The translations under genes were made by a program, and so were the position numbers. DNA of 39,731 bases from a virus. The stretch spans positions 1-39,731 of the IMG/VR virus record IMGVR_UViG_3300019776_000323; one strand, written 5' to 3'. Of this stretch, positions 4,691 to 39,690 are shown one piece after another; the stretch's first letter is position 1, and every line of letters begins with the position of its first letter. The notes below the pieces were generated by a model. That model saw only the letters and a program-made list of their open reading frames with translations, searched no databases and was not told the origin of the DNA.

Positions 4691-4691
4691 A

Positions 4692-7818: not shown

Positions 7819-7918
7819 GTAGTAAAATTTGCGAACACTAACTGACATACGAAGAACTGAACAGCAAAAAGAAAATTAAAGCCGAAGGGCGGATGTATTT
7901 AAACTAAACTAAATAATT

Positions 7919-8425: not shown

Positions 8426-8439
8426 CTCTTGTATTTATC

Positions 8440-8480
8440 GTGCGGTGGGGGCTTTAATTTTCTTTTTGCCTTCACCACAC
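8440..8480. terminator. Hairpin after the early operon (possible terminator without U tract)
   Basis: GTG-C-GGTGGGGGC pairs with GCCTTCACC-A-CAC (two wobbles, one mismatch) around a T-rich 15-nt loop, 14 nt after the stop at 8425. No T run follows on either strand, so it may protect 3' ends or slow converging polymerases rather than terminate by itself. Confidence 0.4.
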
Positions 8481-8532
8481 TTCACTATGAAAAACTGAAC
8501 TATGACGCAAATTTTATTACTCATACACGTTG

Positions 8533-8635
8533 TTATAAGCTGTGCCATTGCGAAGGGCTGGGCGTTGCGTGAGCGTGGGCATGTGCGTACCTCCGGTGGA
8601 AGCATAAGCATTGTGGGCAATGGCATTGCTTATAA
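8533..8635. repeat. 103-bp interrupted inverted repeat at the convergence point
   Basis: Left arm TTATAAGC-TGT-GCCATTGC (8533-8551) pairs with right arm GCAATGGC-ATT-GCTTATAA (8617-8635): two perfect 8-bp blocks separated by an opposed 3-nt mismatch, around a GC-rich 65-nt interior. A symmetric stem with a mismatched internal loop and large head recalls integron attC sites or small MITE-like elements. The diagnostic attC core triplets are not clearly present. A weak 60-codon ORF through it (8502-8684) is probably incidental. Confidence 0.6.
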
Positions 8636-8661
8636 TAATTGGCTATCAGCAACAAACCCGT

Positions 8662-8739
8662 TTACAATCGCTTCCTATAGCTGAAAAAGAGGATAATCAG
8701 CATTAAAACGAAGAACACTATTACAAATAGCCATTCCAT
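8662..8739 (-). CDS. 25-residue single-TM peptide after the holin
   Basis: The ORF is MEWLFVIVFFVLMLIILFFS followed by YRKRL: one TM helix with a basic C-terminus. Its ATG overlaps the last base of the holin stop (TAATG), the usual sign of coupled translation. It is the last possible gene of the leftward late operon. By location it could modulate holin timing, but that is not shown. Confidence 0.45.
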   Translation of the reverse strand: MEWLFVIVFFVLMLIILFFSYRKRL

Positions 8740-9227
8740 TATTTACGCATTGCTTCTTTAAGTACCTCGTCTTTGTCGTGTGATCCTTTACTGCTTCCAA
8801 AGAAGAAATTAAGCACCACCATAGCACCCGCAAATAAGTAAACGTCTGCGAACATTTCTATCATACGCCTGTTTTCTTCTTCAGGAACCCAGAAGAATAA
8901 ACCGAACCCGAAACCTGTTGCACTTAACAAAACGAATGCCGCCAGGTAATAAACAAATCTTTTGGAAAAGGTGTCATTCTGAGCGAGCGCAGCAATTTGC
9001 ATCTTACGGGCTGAATCCCTATCCTCTATTTCAAGCCTTGCCCGTTCAATACTTAGTTTCTCCATCTCCTGAACGTGAGCGGTAACAATCTTTTGCATCT
9101 CGTTATTCAGGATCATCTTTTCTTCCTTGTTGGTGACGTTATCATCGATGGCCTTACCGATGCTGTTGACAATCTTCTCTGCCCCTCCTGCAAATATTTT
9201 CCCTAATACCTGACCTATGCCGCTCAT
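8739..9227 (-). CDS. Holin (3TM holin family)
   Basis: This 162-residue protein starts with an amphipathic N-terminal region, then a long charged helix (about 35-80). Two strongly hydrophobic segments follow (about 90-112, VYYLAAFVLLSATGFGFGLFF, and 125-142), then FFGSSKGSHDKDE, the GSSxGS end typical of the Holin_3TMs family. It would form the inner-membrane lesion that starts lysis. Its start overlaps the DUF5675 gene stop (ATGA), making a compact lysis pair. Confidence 0.8.
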   Translation of the reverse strand: MSGIGQVLGKIFAGGAEKIVNSIGKAIDDNVTNKEEKMILNNEMQKIVTAHVQEMEKLSIERARLEIEDRDSARKMQIAALAQNDTFSKRFVYYLAAFVLLSATGFGFGLFFWVPEEENRRMIEMFADVYLFAGAMVVLNFFFGSSKGSHDKDEVLKEAMRK

Positions 9228-9625
9228 TCTATTGTGATTTGAAATTTATCCGGTAATAGATTAATTAACTCCGTCAATGCCTCACCGCTTCTGATTATGT
9301 CCGGTATGCCATCACCGTTTAAATCCTGTGTCGCTTTCCCTACACCAATACAGCCCTTTAACCCGCTTACATAGGTGATTTTATGAATTAGGATACCTGA
9401 TCTTCCAGGTACTGACGTAAAGCGGAAGTAAGGATAAGGCCGATCAGCTTTAGGTGGTTGTTTAATTACATCATATACACCGGCTGGAATACAAGAAATA
9501 GACCGTTGGTTTTCCCTCCACGGGAGTTCCATCGTTTTGCAGATTTCTTTACCATTGACTAGGAAAGAACCAATTATCTGCGTTTTAAAATGTTGCCAGT
9601 TTTCAGGGCGTTTTACTTTTATCAT
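9224..9625 (-). CDS. DUF5675 family protein (lysis-associated)
   Basis: This 133-residue protein has the family features: SCIPAGVYDV, a segment ending PGRSGILIHK (His in the ILIH motif) and GCIGVGK near residue 105. The His...Gly-Cys-Ile pattern is reminiscent of L,D-transpeptidase/YkuD folds that act on peptidoglycan. Phage DUF5675 genes often lie in lysis cassettes. No other endolysin is recognisable in this genome, so this is the best candidate for the wall-active enzyme. The catalytic assignment is inference. Confidence 0.7.
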   Translation of the reverse strand: MIKVKRPENWQHFKTQIIGSFLVNGKEICKTMELPWRENQRSISCIPAGVYDVIKQPPKADRPYPYFRFTSVPGRSGILIHKITYVSGLKGCIGVGKATQDLNGDGIPDIIRSGEALTELINLLPDKFQITIE

Positions 9626-11514
9626 GGTGTAGTTATAAAGTTTTCATAAGCTAATCCAGCATCGGAATTGTAAAGACTTGCTACCTGAGTGGCTGACAAT
9701 TTCCTTCTCCAAATTCCCAACTCATCTATTCTTCCAGTGAATCCTCCCGCGGTACCATTTAATCCACCTATATAAGCAGAAGTAGATGTGTTACTCATTC
9801 CTAAATAAGTCCCCGTCATTCCACTTGATCCAACGTCTACTCCATTAATATACATTTTTAATCCTGTATGCAGCTTATTACCATCATAGGTAACTACTAT
9901 ATGACTCCATGTATTTAAAGGTATAGCTGCTCCCCCCACCCCTATAGTAGAAGTTCCGGCCCCTTGTGAAAATAAAGTAAAATCAGGGATTCCACTTGTT
10001 GCTATTCTAAGAGAATATTCTAATCCTCCGGCTGGCCTTTTAGTAAATATATAATTTGTTGCCGCAAATGAAGTCGGATAAACCCATACTGAAAAAGTTA
10101 AAGGCACATCCCCACCTAAAAACATTACAAAACTTAATAATGTTGAATCAGCTAAACTTATGTATTGAGTGCTACCATTGAATGAATAAGCGTTATTTAT
10201 TTTACCAGCTACGGATGAAGGGGCAGCTACCAATGTTCCATTGTGTAATCCAGTTGAATCATTTGCATTTGCATTTAATTTAAAATAACTGATTATACCG
10301 TTATTGATATATTGACTATTGTAAAGGTTGAGATTTAGGTATGCGGCATAAATAAGATCATGTCCATCCACATTAGGGTGTGCGTTATCGGGTAATACCA
10401 AAGCACCATTTAAAGTTACTCTGTCACCCCCAGTCGTAAGTAAAGCTGCTATGTCTAAAATCTGATAACCTCTTGTTAAAACATAAGCATTCATAGCATT
10501 GATATTTGTAAACGCTGCTACCGCTGGCATTGGGGCGTATGTTGTCAATATAATGTTTGATCCTAATGAGACAAACTGCCTTATCAAAGACTCTAAATTA
10601 TCCTTCCATGTCTGTAAAACAGATTCGTTATAACCAACAGAAATAATAACGTTTTTTGGGGTAAATGATCCCCAATCTTTTATTCTGGTTAATAAGTCAG
10701 CAGCACTATTACCTCCCCACCCACTTATAACAGCATTTCCCGATTCAAAATTAAAAACCCTGTAAGCCCAGCGATCTTCAAGATCAGGTGTTAAAGAATA
10801 TCCATCAACATAGCTATCACCATAAACCGCTATTTTTGGAGAAGATGGATTCAGGGCATAATAGTAAAGTCCTGAATAATCAATATCACCTTTAACGTGT
10901 TGTAATGCTACCTGTCCCCTGAACAGGGAATTTCCTGTTGTTAACGTATTGGATTCACCGGTTGTAATGTTGGTTAACTTAATAATTGATGATAAATCTA
11001 TTTTAGAAAACTCAACCTTGTAATCATGTGCAGTGTTGATAGTTAACGTAATTGGTTCTGATGTTGATAATGTGGGTGGTGTGGGGTATAAATAATAGCC
11101 ATAGAATTTTATCAAACTATTTTCAAAGTCAATTTCCGCAACCGACCCGCCCTTTGCCCATGAATTTGTATTGTATTTAAGCACTCGAAAAACAGATGTC
11201 GAACTATTTATATTAAAAAAAACAGTTGTCCGTTGCCTTTCCTGTGAGGATAAATAAGACCATCCGGCAAAGGAATCCCATCCTGTATTTGCTGGCGTTC
11301 CGGTAGAATTTAAAACTCCTCCTGTGAATGTAAACTCTGCTGTATCTGACCAGTCAGCAGGCTGTGATGAAAGGTCAGAACCAAATAATAATGTTTCATC
11401 TTCGGCTTCTGCCGTTGTGCCTATCCACCATAACTTCTTTGAAATATTCATATTTTCTAATTCATCTTTACATCCTAATAAACCCAATAAGCCTAAAAAA
11501 TTTCTTCTATTCAT
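9622..11514 (-). CDS. SGNH-hydrolase (esterase) with LamG domain and lipoprotein/Tat-like N-terminus
   Basis: The 630-residue protein has three parts. Residues 1-15 (MNRRNFLGLLGLLGC) contain a twin-arginine-like RRNFLG and an LLGC lipobox. A beta-rich region follows, then an SGNH/GDSL hydrolase at about 225-400: GDS at 232-234, block II Gly at 265-268, Asn296 in GYNES, and Asp376/His379 in DNAHP. Residues about 405-625 form a LamG/concanavalin-like carbohydrate-binding domain. Such enzymes remove O-acetyl groups from polysaccharides. Its position between fibre and lysis genes suggests a tail-tip depolymerase or esterase. The signal-like start instead suggests export to the host envelope. The gene is clearly AT-richer than the head genes. 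Confidence 0.75.
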   Translation of the reverse strand: MNRRNFLGLLGLLGCKDELENMNISKKLWWIGTTAEAEDETLLFGSDLSSQPADWSDTAEFTFTGGVLNSTGTPANTGWDSFAGWSYLSSQERQRTTVFFNINSSTSVFRVLKYNTNSWAKGGSVAEIDFENSLIKFYGYYLYPTPPTLSTSEPITLTINTAHDYKVEFSKIDLSSIIKLTNITTGESNTLTTGNSLFRGQVALQHVKGDIDYSGLYYYALNPSSPKIAVYGDSYVDGYSLTPDLEDRWAYRVFNFESGNAVISGWGGNSAADLLTRIKDWGSFTPKNVIISVGYNESVLQTWKDNLESLIRQFVSLGSNIILTTYAPMPAVAAFTNINAMNAYVLTRGYQILDIAALLTTGGDRVTLNGALVLPDNAHPNVDGHDLIYAAYLNLNLYNSQYINNGIISYFKLNANANDSTGLHNGTLVAAPSSVAGKINNAYSFNGSTQYISLADSTLLSFVMFLGGDVPLTFSVWVYPTSFAATNYIFTKRPAGGLEYSLRIATSGIPDFTLFSQGAGTSTIGVGGAAIPLNTWSHIVVTYDGNKLHTGLKMYINGVDVGSSGMTGTYLGMSNTSTSAYIGGLNGTAGGFTGRIDELGIWRRKLSATQVASLYNSDAGLAYENFITTP

Positions 11515-27916: not shown

Positions 27917-29083
27917 TTAATCTTTTCTCAGATTGGAAATAGCGGCATAACGGGCAGCAGATAAGGCGTGATCAAATCCATCGATGGGTTCATCCAGCCT
28001 GATGCCTCGTATCTCACGCCAGCGATAGTTGGCCTGCTCCTTTCGGAGTTCGGGACTGTCTACCATGTGAATCTTGTATTTCTTCATCAGGGAAATGCCG
28101 TAATTGATTGACCCGTGGAACTTGTTAACGGCCAGCACGCGCAATCCTGCCCGCCTTAAATCGCTGATCATGCCAGGGTCGGCACTGTCACACCATACCG
28201 ACTTATCAGGGACTAATTGCCGGAATACCGGGATGACCTCGTTACTCGATGGGGTGGGTTTATAAAACAGGGATTCGATATACAGGTTTGTGCCGTCTAT
28301 GCCCAATCGTACCAGTGATGTAGGGTCGTTGGTATAGCCCCAGTCAGCCCCGAAATAGACCTTTTCAATGTTTTCTGGGAACTTATCCACCCATGTAACA
28401 TGCTGAAAAATAAGCCCTTCAGGAGCGGAGCGCAATCCGAGGCCGTAGACATTCCACATATAATCATCTGCCGTGCCTTGTCTTATATTTTCCTCGGTGG
28501 GTTCATAGCTGAGAATCTTGCGCCTTTCGGCCTCGCTTACATTGGGGTTATCCTTGAAGGTGGTAGAAAGAAATCCTACATCATCGCGGGGCTGAAGGCG
28601 GTCGTATATCCAATGGTCTGTAAATTTAGGGTTGAAGTCTACCCACCAGAACTTGCGGCAGCGCATCTCCAACTGATCGAATATTTCGCGCGATACGTCT
28701 AAGGCTTCATTGATGTAAAAGTAATCCGAGGAAGCCCCGTGAAACTTAGACGGGTTATCTGCCCCTAATAAATTTATCTTGTTGCCGAACAGCTTAAACT
28801 GGGTGACCTCCTGCTTCATGGCAAATGGCGAAGCAATACCGAAATCAGGTAAACGCCTGTTGAAGTCATCGTATAGGGTAGTCTTAAAGCTGTTGTAGGT
28901 TTCCTTAACAATGTTGATGGTCGATCCTGTCTCTACCCTACTGCATAGATAGACGATAAAATCCACCGATGACCATGTTTTGCCGGAGCGGGAAGAACCG
29001 GAAAGGATCACCCCGCGCTTGCCTTCCTTGAGTGCTTTGTGGAGGTAGGTTAAATTAGGGTTGATTATCCGTTTCGGTTTCAT
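27917..29083 (-). CDS. Terminase large subunit
   Basis: In this 388-residue packaging motor the N-terminal ATPase has Walker A GSSRSGKT (29-36) and a Walker B-like DYFYINEA (121-128). The C-terminal RNase H-like nuclease has acidic residues at Asp248 (FGADWGYTNDP), Asp300/Asp303 (WCDSADPG) and Asp372 (DGFDHALSAARY). This is the PBSX/Terminase_3-type arrangement. Its start overlaps the small subunit gene by 29 nt. Packaging mode (cos or pac) cannot be read from the sequence. Confidence 0.9.
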   Translation of the reverse strand: MKPKRIINPNLTYLHKALKEGKRGVILSGSSRSGKTWSSVDFIVYLCSRVETGSTINIVKETYNSFKTTLYDDFNRRLPDFGIASPFAMKQEVTQFKLFGNKINLLGADNPSKFHGASSDYFYINEALDVSREIFDQLEMRCRKFWWVDFNPKFTDHWIYDRLQPRDDVGFLSTTFKDNPNVSEAERRKILSYEPTEENIRQGTADDYMWNVYGLGLRSAPEGLIFQHVTWVDKFPENIEKVYFGADWGYTNDPTSLVRLGIDGTNLYIESLFYKPTPSSNEVIPVFRQLVPDKSVWCDSADPGMISDLRRAGLRVLAVNKFHGSINYGISLMKKYKIHMVDSPELRKEQANYRWREIRGIRLDEPIDGFDHALSAARYAAISNLRKD

Positions 29084-29372
29084 CCAGCGGGAATAAATCT
29101 CCTACCTCTTTTCGTTTGTCTATGAACTCGGTGGTGATCTCCTGTTTTGCCTTACCCTCAAGCCTGTCTATAACTTCCTGAATGGCTTTTAAATCACCCT
29201 TTTCAATTGCCAGGTGCACCAGTTTGTTCACCAGCTTGGCGGCATTATCGCCCTCCTCCAGTTTCTCGCGTAATAGCGTGGAAAGCCATTTAGAGCCGGG
29301 ATTGCCCTTTCTGTTAATCCTTTCAGGGTTTGTATGGAATCCCTGACCTGCTATATTTTCGGGATTTGGCAT
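29055..29372 (-). CDS. Terminase small subunit-like protein (DUF5681 N-terminus)
   Basis: The 105-residue protein is MPNPENIAGQGFHTNPERIN onward. The GxGF..NPeriN..G.pgs pattern is the DUF5681 signature, a DNA-binding domain frequent in small terminase-like proteins. The rest is helical and charged. I chose ATG 29372. A longer version beginning at a TTG (29408) would include the promoter-like palindrome. It is the first gene of the head operon, preceded by a good promoter candidate. Confidence 0.65.
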   Translation of the reverse strand: MPNPENIAGQGFHTNPERINRKGNPGSKWLSTLLREKLEEGDNAAKLVNKLVHLAIEKGDLKAIQEVIDRLEGKAKQEITTEFIDKRKEVGDLFPLDETETDNQP

Positions 29373-29391
29373 TTTCGTAGTGTTTACGTTG

Positions 29392-29438
29392 TGTGCAAAA
29401 TTGCACAAAATTACCTCAAATGATCTTTATTAGCCCAA
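29392..29438 (-). promoter_or_regulatory. Putative late promoter with palindromic operator
   Basis: Read leftward: TTG near 29438, a 22-nt spacer, then TAATTTTG (29413-29406), an exact TAnnTTTG match. A perfect 7-2-7 palindrome TGTGCAAAATTGCACA (29392-29407) overlaps the end of the -7 element and the start-point region. It lies in the only real gap (38 nt) between the glycan block and the terminase gene, so it likely gives the morphogenesis genes independent control. Confidence 0.5.
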
Positions 29439-29959
29439 CTTTCACCTTTCATAATCCGGTAACTATGCCAAAGATACGCACCTTTGATGATTTTAATGCT
29501 ATCCTTAGCTTTCCGGCTGAACTCCAGATCAAATAACAACCCTTTGTCGTTAAAAATTTCCTTTTGAAATCCACCGTGCTCCTTCCATGTCTTCTTTTGA
29601 AACAGCATAAAGAAGCCTGGAACCTGCATCCCAAGTTTACATTCCCCGTTTGGGAACTGATCGGCTAATTTCTCCGCCATTACAATATGGCGTTTGATCT
29701 CATCGCAGGGATCTGGGTTTTTTCCTATTAAATGACTATGCAATCCAATGCGGTTAGTCATCGCACCGAACATTTTAGTACCGGGGTTATTCTCAATGGC
29801 CTTGTCGATTACGGCATAGGTCTTGGGACTCAGGATCATCGCGTCATAATCCATGACCTGTATCCAATCCTCATCATTGGGGACGATTTCACAATGGGCG
29901 TTAAGCTGTGTGCCGAATTGTGACTTATCCACGCTAAAAGGCTGGAATCTGAAGATCAT
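29411..29959 (-). CDS. Glycosyltransferase-like protein (GT2/GT-A type)
   Basis: In this 182-residue protein, WIQVMDYDAMILS (about 32-44) supplies a DxD (Asp37, Asp39) for metal and nucleotide sugar binding. FGAMTNRIG (about 64-72), VPGFFMLFQKK and a C-terminal AYLWHSYR pattern match a compact GT-A family common in phages and Bacteroidota. The start overlaps the previous gene by 26 nt. It is the last gene of the glycan block, next to the late promoter. Confidence 0.7.
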   Translation of the reverse strand: MIFRFQPFSVDKSQFGTQLNAHCEIVPNDEDWIQVMDYDAMILSPKTYAVIDKAIENNPGTKMFGAMTNRIGLHSHLIGKNPDPCDEIKRHIVMAEKLADQFPNGECKLGMQVPGFFMLFQKKTWKEHGGFQKEIFNDKGLLFDLEFSRKAKDSIKIIKGAYLWHSYRIMKGESWANKDHLR

Positions 29960-30686
29960 TAGGTACTTCGATTAGTTTCTGAGCATACGCCCCGATGTAC
30001 ATGCCCGCCTCTGCGTTACGGTAATCTTCCAGGTGTTGCTCCAGATGCCGGGCCGATGAATTGCGGGCTTTCAGGCCAATGTCCTTTCTCACCCATGAAT
30101 AATGATGCATGAAGTAAGGCAATTCAATCACCGCTTTTGTATTGATCGCCCTTGTCGGGTCTACCCGGTAGGGATAGGGGAAATTTCCCGATAATGTATT
30201 TTGATTCAATTTGTGCAAAAATGGGACGTAGTAACTTTCTGGTCTTTCCAGTCTTAAATTGGGACTTTTAAAATATGTCCACATCTTCATGACTGATCCA
30301 TCCTTGCCGGATGCGAAGAACGTTTCCTTTGCCTGCTGAAATTCAGGATGGTATTCATCCACGTCAAGGCTTACAAAGTGGGTGCAATCCAGTTCAATGG
30401 CTTTCTGAATGCCTAAATTGCGCTTCCGTGCTTCATTGACCATGCCGTTACGCCTGTCTTTGGTGATTTCCGGGTTATACTTAATCATGTGGATTTCTGG
30501 CAGCCCTTCCAACGCCTCGATGATTTCTATGAAGGGGTTATATTTTTCGCCCCAATTGGATTGCTCCTGCCAGACGAATATCAGCTTGTCCACGTGAGGA
30601 GCCAGGCAATCGACCGAACCACGTAAAAGTTCGATGCCGTCCCAACAATTCCAGATTGCGGCTATTTTAGGTGGTCTTTGTACCAT
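29934..30686 (-). CDS. Glycosyltransferase-like protein
   Basis: This 250-residue GT-A-like enzyme has an N-terminal AAIWNCWDGIELLRGSV, typical of proteins that describe a sugar transfer to a nearby acceptor, and DxD in FVSLDVDEYHPE (Asp108, Asp110). The C-terminal part has FMHHYSWVRKDIGLK. It is probably soluble and cytoplasmic, since no TM segment is present. It overlaps the dehydratase/epimerase gene by 25 nt. Sugar and acceptor unknown. Confidence 0.7.
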   Translation of the reverse strand: MVQRPPKIAAIWNCWDGIELLRGSVDCLAPHVDKLIFVWQEQSNWGEKYNPFIEIIEALEGLPEIHMIKYNPEITKDRRNGMVNEARKRNLGIQKAIELDCTHFVSLDVDEYHPEFQQAKETFFASGKDGSVMKMWTYFKSPNLRLERPESYYVPFLHKLNQNTLSGNFPYPYRVDPTRAINTKAVIELPYFMHHYSWVRKDIGLKARNSSARHLEQHLEDYRNAEAGMYIGAYAQKLIEVPNDLQIPAF

Positions 30687-31582
30687 GCGATTGTATGAAG
30701 TATGCCATCATTGAAACTAACTTTTTTATACCATCCTAAACTTTTTAGCTTATCTGCGCTTAAATACTGGAAGGGTATTTCCTGAAGGTTGCGGGTAACA
30801 ATGTCAAATTTTGGCCATTTGAGGTAATCACAAATAATGCCGGTAACCTCTTTCATGGTCAACACCTCCTCATCGCCTATGTTATAACATTCCCCCGGCA
30901 ATCCTTTTTCAGCGACCACTTCATATGCCTCGCACACATCATCCACGTGGATAAACTCGCGCTTGAAGTTGGCCACGTTGGAATATAAAACCGGGTTCTG
31001 CTTGCTGAGGATGCGTTTGATGCTGCCGGGAATAATACGGCTGAAGTTTAAATCACCATGCCCGTAAATATTGGCCGACCGGATCACGTTGATATTTAAG
31101 CCGTAGCTTTTGGCGTAGGTCTGCGCGACCAGATCACCGCAGGCTTTTGAGGTAGAATAGATGTCAGAGGCCCGTAAGTCCATGCTTTCATTATAGGGCA
31201 GTTCTTCATGGATGCCATAGGCTTTATCTGAGGAGGCACAGACTACCTTGATTGCCGGGTTGATCTGCCGGACGGCTTCCAGGACGTTTAATGTGCCGAT
31301 GACGTTTGACTGAAAGGCATCTTTTGGGTTGCTGTTGGCTAATTTGACAATGGACTGAGCGGCTAAATGAAAAACCGTGTCGATTTCATAATCATTCAGG
31401 ATTCTTTTTAGCTTCTCCAAATCCATGATGTCACCCTGCACAAGAGTACAGCCCTGCAAATAGTCGGCTTTGTGCTTGTGGTTATAATCACGAATTAGCC
31501 CAACTACATGGCCTTTCTCTTTCAGGTGAACGGCTAACGCTGATCCCAGAAAGCCGTTTATTCCGGTGATGAGGTAGTTCAT
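30662..31582 (-). CDS. NAD-dependent sugar-nucleotide dehydratase/epimerase (extended SDR)
   Basis: The 306-residue enzyme has the Rossmann GxxGxxG at 7-13 (TGINGFLG) and CASSDKAYG with Ser117/118. The catalytic pair is Tyr142/Lys146 in DIYSTSKACGD, followed by IYGHGDLNFSRIIPG and FIHVDDVCEAY. The overall layout is closest to nucleotide-sugar 4,6-dehydratases and related epimerases. It would supply a modified activated sugar to the adjoining glycosyltransferases. The exact substrate (GDP-, CDP- or dTDP-sugar) cannot be fixed. Confidence 0.85.
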   Translation of the reverse strand: MNYLITGINGFLGSALAVHLKEKGHVVGLIRDYNHKHKADYLQGCTLVQGDIMDLEKLKRILNDYEIDTVFHLAAQSIVKLANSNPKDAFQSNVIGTLNVLEAVRQINPAIKVVCASSDKAYGIHEELPYNESMDLRASDIYSTSKACGDLVAQTYAKSYGLNINVIRSANIYGHGDLNFSRIIPGSIKRILSKQNPVLYSNVANFKREFIHVDDVCEAYEVVAEKGLPGECYNIGDEEVLTMKEVTGIICDYLKWPKFDIVTRNLQEIPFQYLSADKLKSLGWYKKVSFNDGILHTIAWYKDHLK

Positions 31583-31905
31583 TTGTAAGAATCCTTAAAT
31601 TTTTTTAAAGTGTCATTACAGAAATTCAAAACTAAATTCTCAACTGATTTAGCTAACCCTTTAGTTTTGCAGTAAAAAATCCACCTTGAATTGAGATGCT
31701 TGATTTTTGCTTCAATCTCATATAAATTTGAAGGGTCAGCATCGTACAAATAACTGAGAAAATTACTACAAAGTGAATTGCAATATGTATGTGCTTCAGC
31801 CTGATACCGCTGAATTGCTCTCCTTTGTGCCCTTGTAAGTTTACTTACATCAATTGACTCTTTTTTTGTAAGTCTGTCTGCTACTTTTCTAAATAGGTTT
31901 ATCAT
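31579..31905 (-). CDS. Hypothetical helical protein (AT-rich insert)
   Basis: This 108-residue protein is Lys- and Cys-containing and helical throughout, starting MINLFRKVADRLTKKESIDV and containing KLTRAQRRAIQRYQ. It is visibly more AT-rich than the genes on both sides, suggesting a separate origin. It keeps 4-nt overlaps with both neighbours. No family is recognised. Confidence 0.5.
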   Translation of the reverse strand: MINLFRKVADRLTKKESIDVSKLTRAQRRAIQRYQAEAHTYCNSLCSNFLSYLYDADPSNLYEIEAKIKHLNSRWIFYCKTKGLAKSVENLVLNFCNDTLKKFKDSYK

Positions 31906-32492
31906 TCGATTCTATAATCAGGTCTTCCCGTTGGCGTACCTCGCCATTTGGTAACGTCATGTTTTTTACTGATTGCGCTCGCCCAAGTGCGGTGGTGCTT
32001 TTGCCCTTTGTACAGTTCGGGGTTCATGTCTACTTTCAAATCGACCCTGTAAGGGAACAAATGCCATATCCGCTCGTACCCATAATCTGCCCCAGTGGGC
32101 TTTGGTTGGGTATCGTGACAGACCATAATACCAGCTTCATCTTCAAAGCGGGAAATGTCTACAATACGCCTTTCACCGGGTGCATGATCGATCAGGATTA
32201 CGGACGGATTAGGGCAGATGTCTTTGGCAATGTGCCAGTTGTTGATAATCCGGTGGAAGCTGTGTTCTTTGGTTTCGTATTGCTTGAAGCGGTCAATCCA
32301 ATCCTGCTCGGTGTCGAAGGAATACAGCCGCCTTTTGTTGTCCTTACAATACTGATGCAGGAAAGGAGTGGATCCATCCCCGCAACCAAGTTCAAGCACC
32401 GGCCCTTTTTTAGTCTCCTCTAAGGCCAGCCAAAGTAAATAACGGTGGTTACTCCAATCATCCACACCGGATAAAAATTCTTCTTTTGTCAT
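31902..32492 (-). CDS. Class I SAM-dependent methyltransferase-like protein
   Basis: In this 196-residue protein, PVLELGCGDGSTP (31-43) is the SAM-binding motif I. SFDTEQDW gives the acidic residue at the end of strand 2, and VILIDHAPGERR resembles motif IV. Its C-terminal half is His/Arg-rich. In a glycan cluster it may methylate a sugar or the glycan end, but a protein or nucleic-acid substrate is possible. It shares one base with the glycosyltransferase gene upstream. Confidence 0.65.
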   Translation of the reverse strand: MTKEEFLSGVDDWSNHRYLLWLALEETKKGPVLELGCGDGSTPFLHQYCKDNKRRLYSFDTEQDWIDRFKQYETKEHSFHRIINNWHIAKDICPNPSVILIDHAPGERRIVDISRFEDEAGIMVCHDTQPKPTGADYGYERIWHLFPYRVDLKVDMNPELYKGQKHHRTWASAISKKHDVTKWRGTPTGRPDYRIE

Positions 32493-33322
32493 TAGTAGTT
32501 AGCGTTTATGTAATCGAAAAGCGGTTGAAAGTGTTCCTTATGCTGAAGGTATGGCCGCACACAATGGGCGTTCATATAGCCGTGGTTTTTCAGCTTATCA
32601 CGGTCAAACGCCCAATAGTTTTTATCCTTGTCAAAGGTGGCCCGGTCAATGGTGGCTTCCAGGTAGTCATCATATCCCCGCTGAATCTCCAGCTTCGGGA
32701 CCGGGTTTTCATGGATCAGGCGTTTTAATAATCGTTCATCTGAGAAATAATAATCCGCCCTTTTTGCGCTGTCATGTGGCCAGATGTTGATGTTCTCCCG
32801 GTCATCAAATTGGGCTTTATCCTTCCATGACCTGATTAACAAATCATAGGGCAGGTTTTTAGGGTTGATGAATTTCTTAAACGTGTCTCCTTCAGCGATC
32901 ATCTGAGAAATAGGATAGCAGCCGTTGTAATGGTAGACCTCACCGCCTACACAAAGCAGAATATTGATGGCACAATTTCCACTATCGTAATACTGATTAA
33001 TGGCATTGAACTTATCTAAAATAAATTTTTTTGAAAGAGGAAACAGATCAATATCATCAATGTAGCAAAGCCGTTCACCATAAGTGGAGGCCAGAATAAA
33101 CCTCGCCATCTTTGCCTGATTGCCGGTGGGAACGTCATCAATTGGTTTAAACAAAGTGACTTTGCCGAACTCGCGCATACGCTGCACTATTGGATCATCG
33201 TCTTTCTTTTTGGTGACAAAGGCCAGGTGACATTCATACCCCATCTTCTTATAAGCCCAACTGACAGGCTCCCAAAATTCCCGATAAACCGGGTTCTCAT
33301 CGCAGGATAGTATTATAGTCAT
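32492..33322 (-). CDS. Glycosyltransferase-like protein, paralogue of 34991-35821
   Basis: The 276-residue protein starts MTIILSCDENPVYREFWEPV and carries LCYIDDIDLFPL with DxD Asp90/Asp92. Later DRATFDKDKNYWAF and NAHCVRP align by eye with corresponding segments of the gene at 34991. The fold is probably GT-A. No signal peptide or TM segment. Donor and acceptor are unknown. Overlaps both neighbours by 1-4 nt. Confidence 0.6.
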   Translation of the reverse strand: MTIILSCDENPVYREFWEPVSWAYKKMGYECHLAFVTKKKDDDPIVQRMREFGKVTLFKPIDDVPTGNQAKMARFILASTYGERLCYIDDIDLFPLSKKFILDKFNAINQYYDSGNCAINILLCVGGEVYHYNGCYPISQMIAEGDTFKKFINPKNLPYDLLIRSWKDKAQFDDRENINIWPHDSAKRADYYFSDERLLKRLIHENPVPKLEIQRGYDDYLEATIDRATFDKDKNYWAFDRDKLKNHGYMNAHCVRPYLQHKEHFQPLFDYINANY

Positions 33323-33897
33323 GATTTAATTAAATAGCATTCAATATTGTTTCTGGTATGGACTAACTCATATTCTGGGTTTTGATCTACGAACTTAAAA
33401 ACCGCGGGCCTCACTTTACTTACTTTTGTGTCCCGGTTGAAATCATCGACCGCAATGACTTTCGTATGGTATTGCTGGCAGAGGTACAAGTCATGGGTGA
33501 CAGTAGCCTCGTCCTGTAAGCCATCCACAAAAGCAAAGGCAAAGGGATTGTGATGGTCAAGTATCAGTTTAACGTTGCCGGTAGATGGCCCCCGGAAGAT
33601 CACCAGGTTATCAAAGCCTTTGGTGTTCTCTAAAAACTCCTCGTAAGAATAAACCCCGTATCCGTGCTGATCACCGGCAAGCGTTATCCACGGATCAACG
33701 ACTACCACTTTCCGATCATTGGCCCATGCATGCTTTAAAAAGACTTTTGTAGAATGACCCACCCCGGCCCCGATTTCTAAAATGTTGCCGTCATACTGAT
33801 CAAGCACCAAAGGCAGAATCATATTAAAGCGGGCCGTTCTTCCTTCCGGGCTTTCGGAGGCTTCCTTATTGGAAAAAAGCGTGATGATGTCTTTCAT
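33319..33897 (-). CDS. Class I SAM-dependent methyltransferase
   Basis: The 192-residue protein has a typical motif I NILEIGAGVGHST (38-50), VVVVDPWI (strand 2 with Asp) and AFVDGLQDEATV with a catalytic-region Asp, as in Methyltransf_24-type O-methyltransferases often found in polysaccharide clusters. The N-terminus (LFSNKEASESPEGR) fits that group. Second methyltransferase in the block. Confidence 0.75.
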   Translation of the reverse strand: MKDIITLFSNKEASESPEGRTARFNMILPLVLDQYDGNILEIGAGVGHSTKVFLKHAWANDRKVVVVDPWITLAGDQHGYGVYSYEEFLENTKGFDNLVIFRGPSTGNVKLILDHHNPFAFAFVDGLQDEATVTHDLYLCQQYHTKVIAVDDFNRDTKVSKVRPAVFKFVDQNPEYELVHTRNNIECYLIKS

Positions 33898-34436
33898 AAT
33901 ATCTGCACCAATGGGCGTTTATCGGTTTTGGTCTCATCCTGAAAAATCACTTCTATCTTATAGGTGTCAAATAGTTTAAGATCAAGATATTTTTTACCCC
34001 CTGCCCCTGACAGGTATTTGGTCGCGCCATGCTTGACGCAGATGTCAACAAGTCGCTCAGTGCCTTTTAACTCGGTGGGGTAATCGTACAGAATAGGGGT
34101 TTTAATTCCTAAATGATGACAGGCCCGGACAATAATGCTCGAATTAGTGCGCCACAGGTCATGCGAAATCAGGTCATTAAATTCATTCAGCTTGTTATAT
34201 CGGTCGGTAATCTTCTTCCAGTCCTTTTGCGGGTGCAGGTATCTTTTATCAACAATGGGGATATTACCACTGGCCACGCTCATGGTGTGCCAGCGGTCAT
34301 CGGCAAAGAAGCGGTTCTGGTAGTTGTTCTTTTCAAACTGGCAATGGCCTAAAATGATAAACAGGTCAGATTGGCGTATCTTTTCAAAGAATGCTGCCCG
34401 GGGGACGAAGTTCGGCTGATGGATACTAATTACCAT
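33894..34436 (-). CDS. WbqC-like family protein
   Basis: The 180-residue protein matches the family from its first residues: MVISIHQPNFVPRAAFFEKI, then SDLFIILGHCQFEKNNYQNR (about 23-42). LKGTERLVDICVKHGATKYL and SGAGGKKYLD lie in the second half. WbqC-like proteins occur in O-antigen and other surface glycan clusters, and their biochemical role is poorly defined (aminotransferase-linked or transfer steps have been proposed). Its presence is strong evidence that the surrounding genes build a glycan. Confidence 0.8.
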   Translation of the reverse strand: MVISIHQPNFVPRAAFFEKIRQSDLFIILGHCQFEKNNYQNRFFADDRWHTMSVASGNIPIVDKRYLHPQKDWKKITDRYNKLNEFNDLISHDLWRTNSSIIVRACHHLGIKTPILYDYPTELKGTERLVDICVKHGATKYLSGAGGKKYLDLKLFDTYKIEVIFQDETKTDKRPLVQIL

Positions 34437-35001
34437 TAAACCATTGTTTTAATTTATCAAGCGTCCATTCGCGGGCGTGGAGATACCAAAGCTGATGGTT
34501 GGGCAGGTATTGCATATTATATTCCATCGACAACCAACCGTCCTCAAACTTTACCAACTCAATGCCATGATCACGGCAGATGGAAATGGTGGATTCATTG
34601 TACTTATTGAACGGAGGCACAAACCGATGCGCATTGATCAGGCGGCAGGATTGCACTATAGAAAGTTCCTGCGAACTGTATTCCATTAAACGGTGATCAA
34701 CATGCACCAATCCATGCCCGGCCAGGCTTACATCTTTACGCAATTCAGGTAATCCGGCTTTTGTGCCTTCATAGAATTTGCGATGATCAGAATAGGCGTT
34801 AAGCATCTCCGGGAATATCCGCTGCTGCGCCTTACCTTTGTATTCGCTCATATCAAAAACAATCGGACTGACTGCCCATATAATCTCTACCTTGTTTTTA
34901 AAGTATTCCTTGATATAATCGGTTAACTCATTGGTCAGCTTCATGTCTGAGTTAATACAGACATCATCGAAGCGGAAGGTGGGCCATGCGTTATATACCA
35001 T
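34426..35001 (-). CDS. NodB-like polysaccharide deacetylase domain protein
   Basis: From ATG 35001 this is a 191-residue protein. FRFDDVC (residues about 9-15) corresponds to motif 1 with the Asp pair, GHGLVHVDH (about 94-102) to the His motif 2, and FVPPFNKYN (about 126-134) to motif 3. That is the CE4/NodB deacetylase order. I rejected the start at 35052, which would overlap the previous gene by 62 nt. It probably removes acetyl groups from N-acetylated sugars, adding a modification step to the glycan block. Confidence 0.6.
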   Translation of the reverse strand: MVYNAWPTFRFDDVCINSDMKLTNELTDYIKEYFKNKVEIIWAVSPIVFDMSEYKGKAQQRIFPEMLNAYSDHRKFYEGTKAGLPELRKDVSLAGHGLVHVDHRLMEYSSQELSIVQSCRLINAHRFVPPFNKYNESTISICRDHGIELVKFEDGWLSMEYNMQYLPNHQLWYLHAREWTLDKLKQWFNGN

Positions 35002-35821
35002 ACTTGGAGTAAAATTGGTTGGTGTATTCATCCATCCACGCGGGAACCTCACCGAATACCTGGAGCAAAAGCCCTTTAATCATTTTCCACTTTTCGGGGC
35101 TTGCCGGGTTATTGTTTTCGCAGTGCGCATCGATCAAATCTGATTGATTCAAAGAAGCCCCCCAGGAATAGGAACCATCCGGAAGCACTTCTATGCTGGC
35201 TCGGTCAACACGGCCTTTTGGCAGTTTGTATTTTCCTATCTGAATCATTCCCCTCTCCACAAACTTAAAATCGGCTTTACGCTTCAAAACTTTTTGTGTG
35301 AGGATGTCCCAGTCAGTGTCCCAATATTCCTCCCACTTATCTTTATAGGCGCGGCCATTGGCTTTGAGTTCCCTTTCCATGTCGGCTTTCAGGTCTCCGG
35401 TTAAGTCCATTGTCTTTACCCATTCAAACCCTCTCATGCCGGTGTAGTGAACAGGAATAAACGATTTACCTGTTAACTCCCACCCATAGATTGTGTTAAC
35501 CATCATATCCGGCTCATAGGGTCGTAAAGGGATAAGATCAATATCCTGAACCATGATATAAGCGTTTAGAGGCAATGCATCAGCCGCGAAATGTCTGACG
35601 GTTTGTGCTAATGTTCCTGGTCGCACGTTTTCAATAGATGGTATGATATGTAATTTTATACCTGAATCATATTCAGACATAGGATATACAAACGCAGGAT
35701 AATCATCCGTTACAAACGCATGAACCTCCCATCTAAATTTTTGCCAATAGTGGGCAACAATAGGCAGATAATAGAAATAGTTCGGGTTATTGTCGGTTGA
35801 TAATACTACTATTCGATTCAT
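34991..35821 (-). CDS. Glycosyltransferase-like protein, paralogue of 32492-33322
   Basis: The 276-residue protein has the same length as its paralogue. It opens MNRIVVLSTDNNPNYFYYLP and shows YIMVQDIDLIPL with DxD at Asp93/Asp95, DRASIEVLPDG and DAHCENNNP. The shared N-terminal 'sxDxNP.Y', VT and DID-LxPL segments indicate a duplication within the cluster. Soluble, no TM. Specificity unknown. Confidence 0.6.
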   Translation of the reverse strand: MNRIVVLSTDNNPNYFYYLPIVAHYWQKFRWEVHAFVTDDYPAFVYPMSEYDSGIKLHIIPSIENVRPGTLAQTVRHFAADALPLNAYIMVQDIDLIPLRPYEPDMMVNTIYGWELTGKSFIPVHYTGMRGFEWVKTMDLTGDLKADMERELKANGRAYKDKWEEYWDTDWDILTQKVLKRKADFKFVERGMIQIGKYKLPKGRVDRASIEVLPDGSYSWGASLNQSDLIDAHCENNNPASPEKWKMIKGLLLQVFGEVPAWMDEYTNQFYSKYGI

Positions 35822-35828
35822 AAAATAT

Positions 35829-36146
35829 TTATTTAATATCAGGAAATTGATACCTCAATGAATCTTTTTCCCAATAATCAGCAATAACTAATTCAGCTAT
35901 CTCTTTTGTCGGTAGAATTATTAAATCCAATAAATCATTCGTTTGTAATATTTTTGCAACATTGGCAGAACCATCTAACGGGCTTATTGCCTGAACTATG
36001 TAGTAATCATTTCCATCAATAGAACTACCACACTTTCCAGAGATATACAAAATTGCTTTTATTGAATTTTCTTTAACTGATATAGCCCAACATCCAACCA
36101 AATTAGACATTGTGCCTGTTGGGGTAATCATTTTAAATCTTTTCAT
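35829..36146 (-). CDS. Hypothetical protein (AT-rich)
   Basis: This 105-residue protein starts at ATG 36146, which overlaps the stop of the 44-residue gene (ATGA). A start 9 nt earlier is open as well. It is beta-rich in the middle (SIKAILYISGKCGSSIDGND) with a C-terminal helix. It is AT-richer than adjacent genes. No family is recognised. Confidence 0.5.
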   Translation of the reverse strand: MKRFKMITPTGTMSNLVGCWAISVKENSIKAILYISGKCGSSIDGNDYYIVQAISPLDGSANVAKILQTNDLLDLIILPTKEIAELVIADYWEKDSLRYQFPDIK

Positions 36147-36277
36147 TCGTTGCATGTGTTACAAAGTTGATACCCCATATCAGTTAAAATCTTTTTAGCA
36201 TCTTCGAGCGTTGCGGCCCTCACGTATTTGGTAACCTTGTCACCGTTTACGAGTACGATTATTTTGAATTGTTGCAT
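36143..36277 (-). CDS. Small hypothetical protein
   Basis: The 44-residue ORF is MQQFKIIVLVNGDKVTKYVR followed by AATLEDAKKILTDMGYQLC, a beta-beta-alpha outline with a Cys pair near the C-terminus (CNTC). It starts one base after the glycosyltransferase stop at 36279 and overlaps the next gene by 4 nt. It resembles other 'strand plus edAkk helix' phage micro-proteins. Role unknown. Confidence 0.5.
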   Translation of the reverse strand: MQQFKIIVLVNGDKVTKYVRAATLEDAKKILTDMGYQLCNTCNE

Positions 36278-36278
36278 A

Positions 36279-37148
36279 TCAGTTGAATGTTCCATCGTTT
36301 ACCCAATAAGCGATTTGTGGAAATGATTTTTCTATGTTCAGAATGTCCTTAAACTTATCCTGGTGCTTTTGCAGGAACTTGAAAGTAGGTGGGTTATACC
36401 ATCCTGCCGCCCCGATGTGCCCGGCTACATCATTGCTTTCACGCATCTCTGCACTTACGCCATCCACAGGGATGTCCGGGATTTCATTTTTGTAGCCATC
36501 CAAGAAAGTGTTGCGCATCCCTAAGACATAATGCTGAACGATCGAAGGATTATTGCCGGCAAACTTGGGGTAGATGTATTTATTAAGGAATGTCTGATCC
36601 GCTCCCTTTTCTTCAAAGTTGATCGACCCTACCCCGTCACCATTGAATAAATGGACGTAATGCTCAATACCTGTAAACACCGGCCATAGCCCCGTATCAA
36701 ATCCAATCATCCCGCCAAGCATGGGCAACGTATGGCTGATGGAATCCGTAATGGCGTGCGCCCCCTTTGCCTTGCTGCGGTCATCTTTGCCATAGTTTAA
36801 CCAATCCTGCACCGCCTGCGCTTCCCGGTAAGTAGCCAGTGAATCCAGGTCGCGGCAGATTACATGAGTATATTTTGAGTAATTGAACACCGGCTTTAAA
36901 CGCCACAGCATGGCTTTAGTCAATACATCCGGGTTGTTGATTTCGACTTCCAACGGCAGGCGATCAAACAGCGACTTATAAGCGTTGTAGGTTTCCTTAT
37001 CGGTCTCCAGTACGTTTACCCAATCAGGATATAAAAGCCGGTTCATGCGGATGCACAGCAAAAGGCCGCGCAGATAAGAATTGAAATCGAAGCTGTTTTT
37101 ATGCTTCTCCTTCCCATAGCCAAATAAAGAATAACTAATTGCCTTCAT
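36279..37148 (-). CDS. Glycosyltransferase-like protein
   Basis: The 289-residue protein starts MKAISYSLFGYGKEKHKNSF. THVICRDLDSLATYREA contains DxD (Asp100, Asp102) in a GT-A setting, LPMLGGMIGFDTGLWPVFTG lies in the middle, and a long C-terminal region is rich in Trp/Tyr. Such 'describe-a-person' GT-A proteins (galactosyl/mannosyl-type) occur in phage and bacterial glycan clusters. It overlaps the upstream GT2 gene by 4 nt. Confidence 0.65.
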   Translation of the reverse strand: MKAISYSLFGYGKEKHKNSFDFNSYLRGLLLCIRMNRLLYPDWVNVLETDKETYNAYKSLFDRLPLEVEINNPDVLTKAMLWRLKPVFNYSKYTHVICRDLDSLATYREAQAVQDWLNYGKDDRSKAKGAHAITDSISHTLPMLGGMIGFDTGLWPVFTGIEHYVHLFNGDGVGSINFEEKGADQTFLNKYIYPKFAGNNPSIVQHYVLGMRNTFLDGYKNEIPDIPVDGVSAEMRESNDVAGHIGAAGWYNPPTFKFLQKHQDKFKDILNIEKSFPQIAYWVNDGTFN

Positions 37149-37753
37149 TTTTTAGATGTATAATGGTAGTAGTAAATGACCTGATCGATGTAATGTTCCT
37201 TTTCAATCAATCCCGACTTATGAATCTGAGTAGCCCAATCGGTATCTTCCCCGTGATTCTTTTCAGGAAACTTAAATTTCTTTGCGATGACTGATTTAAT
37301 GCAGTTTAAATGATTGGGGAAGCGTTCGTATTTGATTTCGTTGGGCGTGGTTTTATAAGCCTCATACTTGATAGAATGCTCAAAAACCCCATCAAAAGTG
37401 CCATCAGTAAAATAATGACCACGCAGGGAACAGCAATCAACAGAAAGATCAATGCCGTTAAAAAGAACATTGAAATAGTTTTCAGATACTTTATCATCGT
37501 CATCAATAAAACAAACATATTCCCCATCGGCCTCCTTCAGCAGTTTGTTGCGCTTCCATCCAATGGAATATTTTTTCTTATCGGACAGGATCAGGATTTC
37601 AAGTAAGGGGTTATACTCCCTCCTGATAAAATAATCTTCGCCCTCGGTGTAATCCGTGGTGAGAATGTGCGTCTGTTTCCTGAGTAGCTGTAATAACTCA
37701 TCGAGTTTATCCTGACGATCCGGCAAAGTCGGTATTAATATGGACAGCTTCAT
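37145..37753 (-). CDS. Family 2 glycosyltransferase
   Basis: In this 202-residue protein, MKLSILIPTLPDRQDKLDEL is the classic GT2 start, and YVCFIDDDDKVSENYF holds the acidic DxD (84-87). The catalytic-base region NHGEDTDWATQ (about 167-177, Glu-Asp) follows. No membrane segment is present, so it probably adds one sugar to a soluble or peripheral acceptor. Overlaps both neighbours by 4 nt. Confidence 0.85.
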   Translation of the reverse strand: MKLSILIPTLPDRQDKLDELLQLLRKQTHILTTDYTEGEDYFIRREYNPLLEILILSDKKKYSIGWKRNKLLKEADGEYVCFIDDDDKVSENYFNVLFNGIDLSVDCCSLRGHYFTDGTFDGVFEHSIKYEAYKTTPNEIKYERFPNHLNCIKSVIAKKFKFPEKNHGEDTDWATQIHKSGLIEKEHYIDQVIYYYHYTSKK

Positions 37754-38385
37754 CGTGGGAAGTTTTGTGCTTTACGGTTTATGTATAATTGTTTCCCCTG
37801 TTCCCAGTTGGAGGTTGAGCGATCATAGGTTTCATCGCGCTTGGATTTGCCGTTCACATAATGATGATGTTCAAAGACCAATTCCGGGCATAGTTTCAAA
37901 GCCTCCATGTTTTTTACTGTCCAGTATAAATCCTGGTCGCAGAACATAGAGCGGTAAGCCGGATGAAAGAAATACCCCAACTCATTATAAAGCGCTTTAT
38001 TCATGATGGGGATGGTCAACACATCCTTATGGAAGCCCTGTAATTTGTCATCTACCTTAATAAGTAAAGGTGTATTAACATGAAAATGTTTTAATACTTC
38101 AAAGCCCCAGTTATCAAAACATTTAAAGTCATCCGACAAGTAAAGCAATACATCATGTTCGGCTTTCTTTGCGGCTTCGTTAGTCGCCTGCACCACACAA
38201 TCATTATTATTTATTATTACGTTTTCCTGCCCGTACAGCGTCACGTAATCACGCACATACGGATCACTTGAATCCAGGGACACGATCAACTGGCATTCCA
38301 CGCCTGCCTTAGCCAGCCACTCGGTAGTGGTAGCAAATGACTTCTGCGGACGGCTGCGCGATGGATGTAATAAACTAATCGACAT
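37750..38385 (-). CDS. Family 2-like glycosyltransferase
   Basis: From ATG 38385 this is a 211-residue protein, MSISLLHPSRSRPQKSFATT onward. The N-terminal 'hPsR.Rp' and VECQLIVSLDSSDPY fit a GT2-like family in phages and Bacteroidota, LLYLSDDFKCFDNWG supplies the acidic motif, and MFCDQDLYWTV the second acidic site. An 18-nt longer version begins with TTG. The start overlaps the previous stop by 11 nt. Confidence 0.75.
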   Translation of the reverse strand: MSISLLHPSRSRPQKSFATTTEWLAKAGVECQLIVSLDSSDPYVRDYVTLYGQENVIINNNDCVVQATNEAAKKAEHDVLLYLSDDFKCFDNWGFEVLKHFHVNTPLLIKVDDKLQGFHKDVLTIPIMNKALYNELGYFFHPAYRSMFCDQDLYWTVKNMEALKLCPELVFEHHHYVNGKSKRDETYDRSTSNWEQGKQLYINRKAQNFPR

Positions 38386-39007
38386 AATTTGAGTAAAAAT
38401 CAAATGATACCTGGTCCAGTGTTGCCTTTAAAAATCCGTTGTCCTCCTCGGTATAGCGGAATAGTTTTGAATTGTGGCCCGTGCCTCCGTGCATCCCTTC
38501 ACCGTGGCCCTTCATGCCTACAGAATAAATTTTTTCCGGTGCGATGGTTTCCCCTTTCAACTGCCGCCACAGTTCCATATCGACAAACCGGAAATGATCG
38601 GCTGGCCATTTGATGCAAAGATTTGGCTTAATACAGGTATTCATCATCGATGCCCGCCCCTCATGGCCGTATTTAAAATAACGCTTTGTAGGCAGGTGAT
38701 AATAGTACGTGTAATCAATCCCGAAAATATCCGGCTTCCCTGCGTTGTACCATTCCTCCACCATGTAAGCGATATAATCTTCATGATACCAGTCATCATT
38801 TTCAATAAAAAAGATCAGATCAACGTCCGGCATTTTTGCGTATCCGTGCTTATAGCGGAAACACAAATCCGGCATCTCGTCTTTTGGCTTATTGTCCATG
38901 TAGGCAATATAATCCGGGCGTAATGATTGCATCGTCATCATCCTGAAACAGTTCTCCGTCAGTTTCGGACGGTCTCCACGGTCTGGAATGATAATGCCTA
39001 TCTTCAT
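38375..39007 (-). CDS. Family 2-like glycosyltransferase, first gene of the glycan block
   Basis: The 210-residue protein starts MKIGIIIPDRGDRPKLTENC. LIFFIENDDWYHEDYIAYM (about 64-82) is the DxD-type acidic motif, and the C-terminal FRYTEEDNGFLKATLDQVSF is unrecognised. It starts 3 nt after the PAPS-reductase-like stop, so the block continues the integrase/PAPS transcript without a promoter-sized gap. Confidence 0.75.
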   Translation of the reverse strand: MKIGIIIPDRGDRPKLTENCFRMMTMQSLRPDYIAYMDNKPKDEMPDLCFRYKHGYAKMPDVDLIFFIENDDWYHEDYIAYMVEEWYNAGKPDIFGIDYTYYYHLPTKRYFKYGHEGRASMMNTCIKPNLCIKWPADHFRFVDMELWRQLKGETIAPEKIYSVGMKGHGEGMHGGTGHNSKLFRYTEEDNGFLKATLDQVSFDFYSNYVD

Positions 39008-39010
39008 AAT

Positions 39011-39690
39011 TCAATCTGTACAATATCCCGCCTGACATCCAGCACCGACACCGAAAAAGAAATCACCCTGAAGGCCAATATTCTTTATTTGCTTATAGGT
39101 CATTTCTTCTTTAAATCTTTTTAATGGTTCTTCCTTATTTGAAAACCAAGCCATTTTATTTTGGTTATCATCCCAATTCTTTCTTAACTGTTGTACTGGC
39201 TTCCAAAAGCACCCAACGCAATTGCTATCTTCAGGGAAGATTAAACCTGATGAATCAGCCCACTTTTTAACTGTGTAATGGCCAACACCGTCTTTTATTA
39301 AAGGGAATGAAGGAACTCTCCACTCCGTTTCTTCCCATTTATTTCTACTTCCGGCCTTACCTACAATGCCCTTAAATGATGATGATATATTCTTATACCA
39401 CCAATCCCAAATCGGTCGCATCTTCATTTCTGTAGTGCAAAACCTCCACATCTTGTTTGGAACTGCTTTTCTTTTATCAATCAGTTTATCAAATGAAATA
39501 CCACTTACCCAGGTTATCTCTCTGCCTAACTTTTGTTCGAGTTCTAATACAGCAATAAGTGTTTTATCATCCTCCGCAGTGGCTATAAACTCTTTACCCA
39601 ACTTATCAGATACCTTTTGTTGCAACCACTTATCAGGTGCGCACTCTTTATCTTCTATGGTAACCAATGCAAACAGATTGTAATCAGCAG
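39011..39690 (-). CDS. PP-loop / PAPS reductase-like protein, main part (continues at 1-77)
   Basis: This fragment gives residues 29-246 of the restored protein. KMWRFCTTEMKMRPIWDWWY matches the conserved CT..mK..p segment of phage PAPS-reductase-like proteins. The C-terminal part has NCVGCFWKPVQQL and GAGCQAGYCTD, four Cys spaced as a possible Fe-S or Zn site. The family activates sulfate or other substrates through adenylation. Members include sulfonucleotide reductases and DndC-type sulfur-transfer enzymes, and phage versions are mostly uncharacterised. It sits between the integrase and the glycan block and is likely expressed with them. AT-rich relative to head genes. Confidence 0.82.
39675..39690. 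repeat. 16-bp terminal overlap (identical to bases 1-16)
   Basis: AGATTGTAATCAGCAG occurs at both ends of the window. Collapsing the copies restores an intact gene across the join, so it is an assembly overlap of a circular map rather than a biological terminal repeat. Confidence 0.92.

Follow-up and report, generated by a model that had tools for sequence, protein, structure and literature searches.

Glycan-building genes and the packaging module of a temperate phage

What does a temperate phage build with a block of sugar-transferring enzymes that occupies 24% of its genome and holds no membrane component, and on which acceptor does it build it? We addressed this question for IMG/VR virus record IMGVR_UViG_3300019776_000323 (positions 1 to 39,731, 39,731 nucleotides; here called the window), in which 15 genes at 29411-39007 form a dense leftward, same-strand block with the terminase subunit genes terS and terL directly downstream. 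Our analyses suggest that this block is probably a virion-glycosylation locus, the enzymes of which would build a cytoplasmic, O-methylated, and decorated glycan on virion proteins. We favor virion proteins as the acceptor because of the linkage of the block to packaging genes, its lack of membrane parts, the restriction of its families to phages, a weak link to integrase genes, and the homology of one glycosyltransferase (GT) to gp108 of phage Che8.

A membrane-free block of glycan genes

The 16-bp end repeat of the record, with bases 1-16 identical to 39675-39690 of the window, indicates a circular temperate-phage genome of ~39.67 kb. Along the minus strand, a repressor-like gene is followed by the integrase gene (74-1258), a PAPS-reductase-like gene, the block, terS, terL, the portal gene, and the major capsid protein (MCP) gene. 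An earlier sequence-only reading of this DNA had counted sixteen genes in the block, a number reached only if the PAPS-reductase-like gene from 39011 is added to our 15. The tight leftward arrangement and the share of about a quarter of the genome that it described both agree with our analysis: neighboring genes overlap or lie a few bases apart, with the exception of a 123-bp gap (36156-36278), in which a scan for Bacteroidota-type promoters found no strict match. With a G+C content of 0.433 relative to 0.436 in the structural region, the block shows no sign of recent import.

Five of the eight GTs claimed by that reading (GT37145, GT29411, GT37750, GT34991, and GT32492) are supported by profile, fold, or paralogy (Table 1), and the other three (GT36279, GT29934, and GT38375) are recognized by motif only. 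An AlphaFold model of GT34991 (pLDDT 72, pTM 0.78) matched UGGT, GTA/GTB, and GlyE folds in Foldseek with a probability of 1.00 at TM-scores of only ~0.4, and its DxD motif (D93/D95) is invariant in four relatives and conserved family-wide. The GT36279 family keeps its CRDxD and KGxDQ motifs in 65-69 of 69 members. A structure model of GT36279 computed from four sequences reached a pLDDT of 40 and was too poor to use. GT38375 has relatives in contigs L087 (60%) and L103 (48%) and hidden Markov model matches in type-B cassettes; a further comparison made with GT38375 was not significant. The assignment of GT29934 as a possible glycosyltransferase is weak. Profile searches of the PDB with queries A8 and A7 matched nothing, and query A9 gave chance matches only.

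The remaining enzymes are consistent with modification of a glycan. The predicted sugar-nucleotide dehydratase/epimerase and WbqC-like protein were both verified by Pfam profiles, and relatives of the latter occur in 26 viral contigs. Since the SDR protein scored under every equivalog cut-off of NCBIfam, no exact sugar is assigned to it. Between the two claimed methyltransferases, the predicted assignment of MT33319 is firm and that of MT31902 is marginal but probable; the GxGxGST motif of MT31902 is conserved in 44 relatives, and its gene follows GT34991 in order in 27 contigs. The claimed NodB-like deacetylase is upheld by its motifs FRFDD, GHGLxHVDHR, and PPFNK (DD, HxxxH, and PPF), which are conserved in three phages, and not by profiles, as no match was significant in Pfam (best DUF2334, E=0.03) and none was found in the PDB.

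No block protein contains a transmembrane (TM) segment, because no 19-mer in any of them exceeds 1.29 on the Kyte-Doolittle scale. The homologous blocks of the related phages L009 and L087 contain no gene with a TM segment either, and values in a third relative, L086, peaked at 1.75 in a gene that does not belong to the core described below. These findings support the earlier view that the block is not a gtrABC serotype-conversion cassette. Like such cassettes, it holds phage genes for sugar transfer, in this case close to an integrase gene, but it has no flippase, no polyprenyl-phosphate transferase with TM segments, and no polytopic Gtr protein. The cytoplasmic acceptor that was proposed on this ground likewise holds up.

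A conserved core of the block lies beside terL in uncultured viruses

To describe the block in other viruses, we used a scan with a GT37145-family profile, which yielded at least 315 confirmed viral contigs, with 80 kept for examination and gene order counted on 79 nonduplicate loci. The search for the same gene set in related phages suggested by the sequence-only reading thus recovered a core of the block widely, as well as the same block in L002 and L087. The core consists of GT37750-GT37145-GT36279, usually followed by GT34991-MT31902. All five genes were found in order at 27 of the 79 loci and the first three alone at 23. The only deviating arrangement placed GT37750 last (three contigs), and the remaining orders agreed. 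GT37750 is beside GT37145 in 72 of the contigs examined, and the open reading frames (ORFs) of GT37145 and GT36279 abut in 55/65. After the core, gene content differs from phage to phage and comprises GT34991 and MT31902, a GT32492-like set, or an unassigned 224-aa ORF. By inspection of the sequence, the variable cassette end of contig L109 (6200-7449) contains ORFs that resemble a hexapeptide acyltransferase and an SDR protein.

We detected terL in 43 of 50 core-bearing records, on the same strand in 42. The same-strand terL start was 1.7-4.8 kb downstream of the core in 34 of the 43; in another 6 it was 3.6-5.2 kb upstream. The sampled terL proteins formed about five groups with <30% identity between groups. 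WbqC contigs, a linkage control that is itself weak, had terL in only 2/22. Furthermore, the GT29411 family occurs near terL, portal, or MCP genes on the same strand in 15 of 28 contigs.

The core families appear restricted to phages. In 396 genomes from the phylum to which Bacteroidales genome G030 belongs, the GT37145 family (E<=1e-8) did not occur and the GT34991 family hardly did. The GT36279 family was almost missing from 50,697 phage records. Among open-licence papers, we found no described module of this kind. One match of the GT36279 family, to a "SPINDLY O-GlcNAc transferase," was on an evidently bacterial contig and was not used as functional evidence. Contig L184 (CAKLQF020000005.1), named Acinetobacter phage MD-2021a, carries recN, gspE, tpiA, and tRNA genes and is evidently an Acinetobacter chromosome labelled as phage.

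These linkages bear on a second possible role for the block, lysogenic conversion or superinfection exclusion, in which the substrates would be lipid-linked host precursors of O-antigen or capsule on the inner side of the membrane and the flippase and polymerase of the host would export the product. The phage does have integrase and helix-turn-helix (HTH) genes, and the block is co-directional with the integrase and PAPS-reductase-like genes, the ORFs of which overlap by 4 bp. WbqC and NodB-type enzymes are also common in surface-glycan loci. We nevertheless consider this role less likely than virion glycosylation, as there is no TM gene and no initiating or polytopic transferase, the core is linked to terL in about five lineages, a phrog_1 integrase was found in only 1/17 core-bearing contigs >20 kb (which are partial), the core families are phage-restricted, and L087 has no integrase or PAPS-reductase-like gene upstream of its block.

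Block genes are under purifying selection at a glycan slot

L002 and L087 carry the same block at amino acid identities of 58-91%. Genes common to both show synonymous divergence (pS) of 0.76-0.97, which is saturated, and nonsynonymous divergence (pN) of 0.08-0.29, with no frame broken. Because these genes remained intact at saturated synonymous divergence, their conservation goes beyond chance. In the same comparison, terL and the portal gene were under similar purifying constraint, in agreement with the strong selection that the sequence-only reading had supposed. Ranks of identity differ from gene to gene, with GT36279 closer to L087 and terL closer to L002, and block genes therefore appear to have been exchanged between relatives.

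The slot upstream of terS is a glycan locus. In L009 (terL 64% identical), it is filled by another cassette of two GT1-type GTs, an RXYLT1/GT47 protein, an FkbM methyltransferase, and a radical SAM protein, followed by relatives of GT29934 and GT29411. Other relatives in the terL clade lack a glycan block at the slot. L086 has an unrelated terL, yet GT37750-GT37145-GT36279-GT34991-MT31902 lie directly upstream of it. Other inserts were also observed at this site. In the close relative L004, a DEAD/SNF2-like helicase gene and an N6/N4 DNA methylase gene form a paired insert (6771-9112) within the glycan block, and L087 has homing/HNH-endonuclease-like genes in and before its block (4277-5089 and 1925-2248).

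Such inserts, together with the different genes of L009, are what could be expected if the site were merely permissive and the block a gathering of independent cargo enzymes with no common glycan. We consider this highly improbable, since the core keeps its gene order and strand, its ORFs abut, and all genes are intact at the divergence given above. The scattered and often broken cargo genes that the sequence-only reading had named as the contrary pattern were not seen; the core instead keeps its order and its tie to terL across lineages.

Relation to known glycosylation systems

The GT37145 profile matched the N-terminal half of Che8 gp108 (E=3.5e-34) and LittleE gp15 (E=4.5e-41), and alignment of GT37145 with these two proteins and Jabbawokkie gp106 revealed common SIGxKRN, DDDD, PxH, and GED motifs, with DDDD and GED being catalytic and all catalytic motifs of gp108 and gp15 shared. 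Che8 gp108 is a GT domain fused to a Methyltransf_24/TylF domain (PF13578), the Pfam family of MT33319, and is the one of three Che8 GTs with a relative in the block. Proteins of Che8, Corndog, and Myrna are glycosylated, with Che8 gp110 named as an essential GT (PMC12363180), and PMC12363180, PMC12619734, and PMC11256854, which report the work of Freeman et al. 2023, describe glycosylation of capsid and tail-tube proteins by the mycobacteriophages' own GTs. The claim of an undescribed system was thus too strong. Our block resembles Che8-type virion glycosylation (Che8 gp108-110, Corndog gp38, and Myrna) in its phage-encoded soluble GTs and in the pairing of GT with Methyltransf_24. Unlike the three Che8 genes near the genome end, it comprises 15 genes beside terS and terL, includes a nucleotide-sugar enzyme, a WbqC-like protein, and a deacetylase-like gene, belongs to phages of other hosts, and is known from genes, whereas Che8 glycans have been observed.

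GT genes also occur among head genes elsewhere. LittleE (Cluster J) gp15 is in a run of GT genes between the MCP and head-tail connector genes, and Cellulophaga phage phi12:1 has a Methyltransf_24 gene and a GT29411-like GT gene between head morphogenesis and protease/MCP genes. LittleE and the Cellulophaga phages phi12:1 and phi18:1 therefore share with the block GT and methyltransferase genes placed with head genes, and differ in having few of them. In phi12:1, gp39 (L089 10868-11335), beside the GT gene in the head module, is annotated as a DNA methyltransferase, matches Methyltransf_24, and may be a sugar methyltransferase.

Chloroviruses, which infect eukaryotic algae, use their own soluble GTs to build an elaborate capsid glycan in the cytoplasm without host membrane machinery. 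Their likeness to the block is limited to the generic GT-A fold, and the hosts differ.

About as improbable as independent cargo is glycosylation of hypermodified phage DNA bases: phage GTs are able to glycosylate modified DNA (Pyle 2024, cited in PMC12619734), GT37145 weakly matched TAGT (TET-associated GT; E=0.005), and a DNA methylase and helicase are inserted in the L004 block, but the TAGT score is far under the cut-off with GT2 scoring higher, the methylase-helicase pair is in neither the window nor L002, and the scanned genes (some small early genes being unassigned) include no base-hydroxymethylating, TET/JBP-like, thymidylate-synthase-like, or base-kinase gene.

A model for glycosylation of virion proteins

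From the acceptors originally listed, virion protein is now favored, host glycan is less likely, and DNA is unlikely. What the enzymes act on, in which order the sugars are added, and what the phage gains are inferred as follows. Drawing on nucleotide sugars of the host and on one sugar that the phage SDR protein would produce or modify, soluble GT-A enzymes would assemble, within the cytoplasm, a short glycan directly on freshly synthesized head or tail subunits. A basal glycan would be made and O-methylated by the core (GT37750, GT37145, and GT36279, usually with GT34991 and MT31902), and variable genes would add lineage-specific decorations to it, here GT32492, the WbqC-like and deacetylase-like proteins, the second methyltransferase, GT29934, and GT29411. 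The likely benefit would be a changed virion surface, either shielding against proteases, antibodies, or vesicle decoys or altering receptor contacts.

Several observations weigh against virion glycosylation. The block contains no meaningful relative of Che8 gp110 (GT25), the GT described as essential for glycosylating the capsid, and its methyltransferases could not be aligned directly with Che8 gp108 by profile, sharing only a Pfam family. The MCP has no C-terminal extension in comparison with relatives lacking the block. The 43 contigs with terL are related within groups and are not independent, so that linkage is better judged by how many lineages show it. The phage is temperate, as indicated by its integrase and HTH genes, and its block adjoins the integrase operon, as expected of a lysogenic-conversion cassette. 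Finally, for the phi18:1 GT, which is in a structural module, modification of lipopolysaccharide is among the proposed roles (PMC11946311).

As a more tentative extension of the virion-glycosylation proposal, the block might be a virion "serotype locus," in which the core GT37750-GT37145-GT36279 and interchangeable decorating genes are inherited or exchanged with the packaging module among unrelated uncultured phages. The decorating sets would be GT34991 with MT31902; a GT32492-like gene accompanied by a second SDR-like ORF and an ORF that resembles a hexapeptide acyltransferase; or the 224-aa ORF. Such a locus would diversify the glycan coat of the virion in the manner of bacterial O-antigen or capsule loci.

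Features of the block and its surroundings

Table 1. Genes of the glycan block and adjoining genes, in minus-strand order (window coordinates)
Feature	Coordinates	Strand	Evidence or remark
PAPS-reductase-like gene	39011..39690, continuing across the circular junction to base 77	-	phrog_424 E=4e-11
GT38375, GT-A-like, first block gene	38375..39007	-	motif only: END-D
GT37750, glycosyltransferase, core gene 1	37750..38403	-	phrog_14945 E=2e-18
GT37145, GT2 glycosyltransferase, core gene 2	37145..37753	-	Pfam PF00535 30.8 bits, above cut-off; PHROG GT
GT36279, probable GT-A, GT8-like by motif, core gene 3	36279..37148	-	
Small ORF	35829..36155	-	no Pfam or PHROG match; no counterpart in L002 or L087
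GT34991, GT-A glycosyltransferase, core gene 4	34991..35821	-	AlphaFold model and Foldseek
NodB-like putative polysaccharide deacetylase	34426..35001	-	motifs only
WbqC-like protein	33894..34436	-	PF08889 86 bits, E=4e-24
MT33319, SAM methyltransferase, Methyltransf_24	33319..33897	-	PF13578 30.1 bits (cut-off 26.3), E=1e-6
GT32492, GT34991 paralogue	32492..33322	-	hhalign probability 96%, E=4e-9; alignment ends at common D(D)ID motif
MT31902, SAM methyltransferase-like, core gene 5	31902..32492	-	PF13578 E=0.03
Small ORF	31579..31905	-	no significant family
SDR nucleotide-sugar dehydratase/epimerase	30662..31582	-	Pfam Epimerase E=1.5e-53
GT29934, probable GT2-like	29934..30686	-	relative L009:6245-7090 vs PF00535 E=0.0044; invariant DxDE
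GT29411, glycosyltransferase abutting terS	29411..29959	-	phrog_14179 E=5e-23
Small terminase subunit-like gene	29055..29408	-	2 bp downstream of block, just before terL; same place in relatives
Large terminase subunit	27917..29083	-	phrog_2 E=5e-31

Two genes probably start at specific ATG codons: at 38385 for GT37750 and at 35001 for the NodB-like gene, the latter giving 191 aa. The PAPS-reductase-like ORF is unbroken over the circular junction (MITVNSLSGGKTSS...) and shares 4 bp with the integrase gene; this upstream neighbor is not clearly part of the glycan system. In the tail region, a protein encoded at 9622-11514 of the window has GDSL esterase and ConA-like lectin (Laminin_G_3) domains and possibly binds or deacetylates a host glycan. 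The last ~41 bp of the window are an Illumina sequencing adapter that was left in the public record. The host probably belongs to the Bacteroidota, as judged from the integrase domain types and from the nearest isolate terL, which comes from Cellulophaga phages; a DNA search of the phage database found no near relative.

Implications for phage virions

To date, virion glycosylation has been demonstrated for a small number of actinobacterial phages only. If our proposal is true, sugar-coated virions would be common, given the hundreds of uncultured-virus contigs that have the core next to terL, and GT genes regarded as "auxiliary metabolic" would become genes for structural-protein modification. 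The GT36279 family, nearly absent from isolate phage records, could serve as a marker for picking an isolate. Such coats would bear on how phage particles encounter decoys, grazers, antibodies, and receptors.

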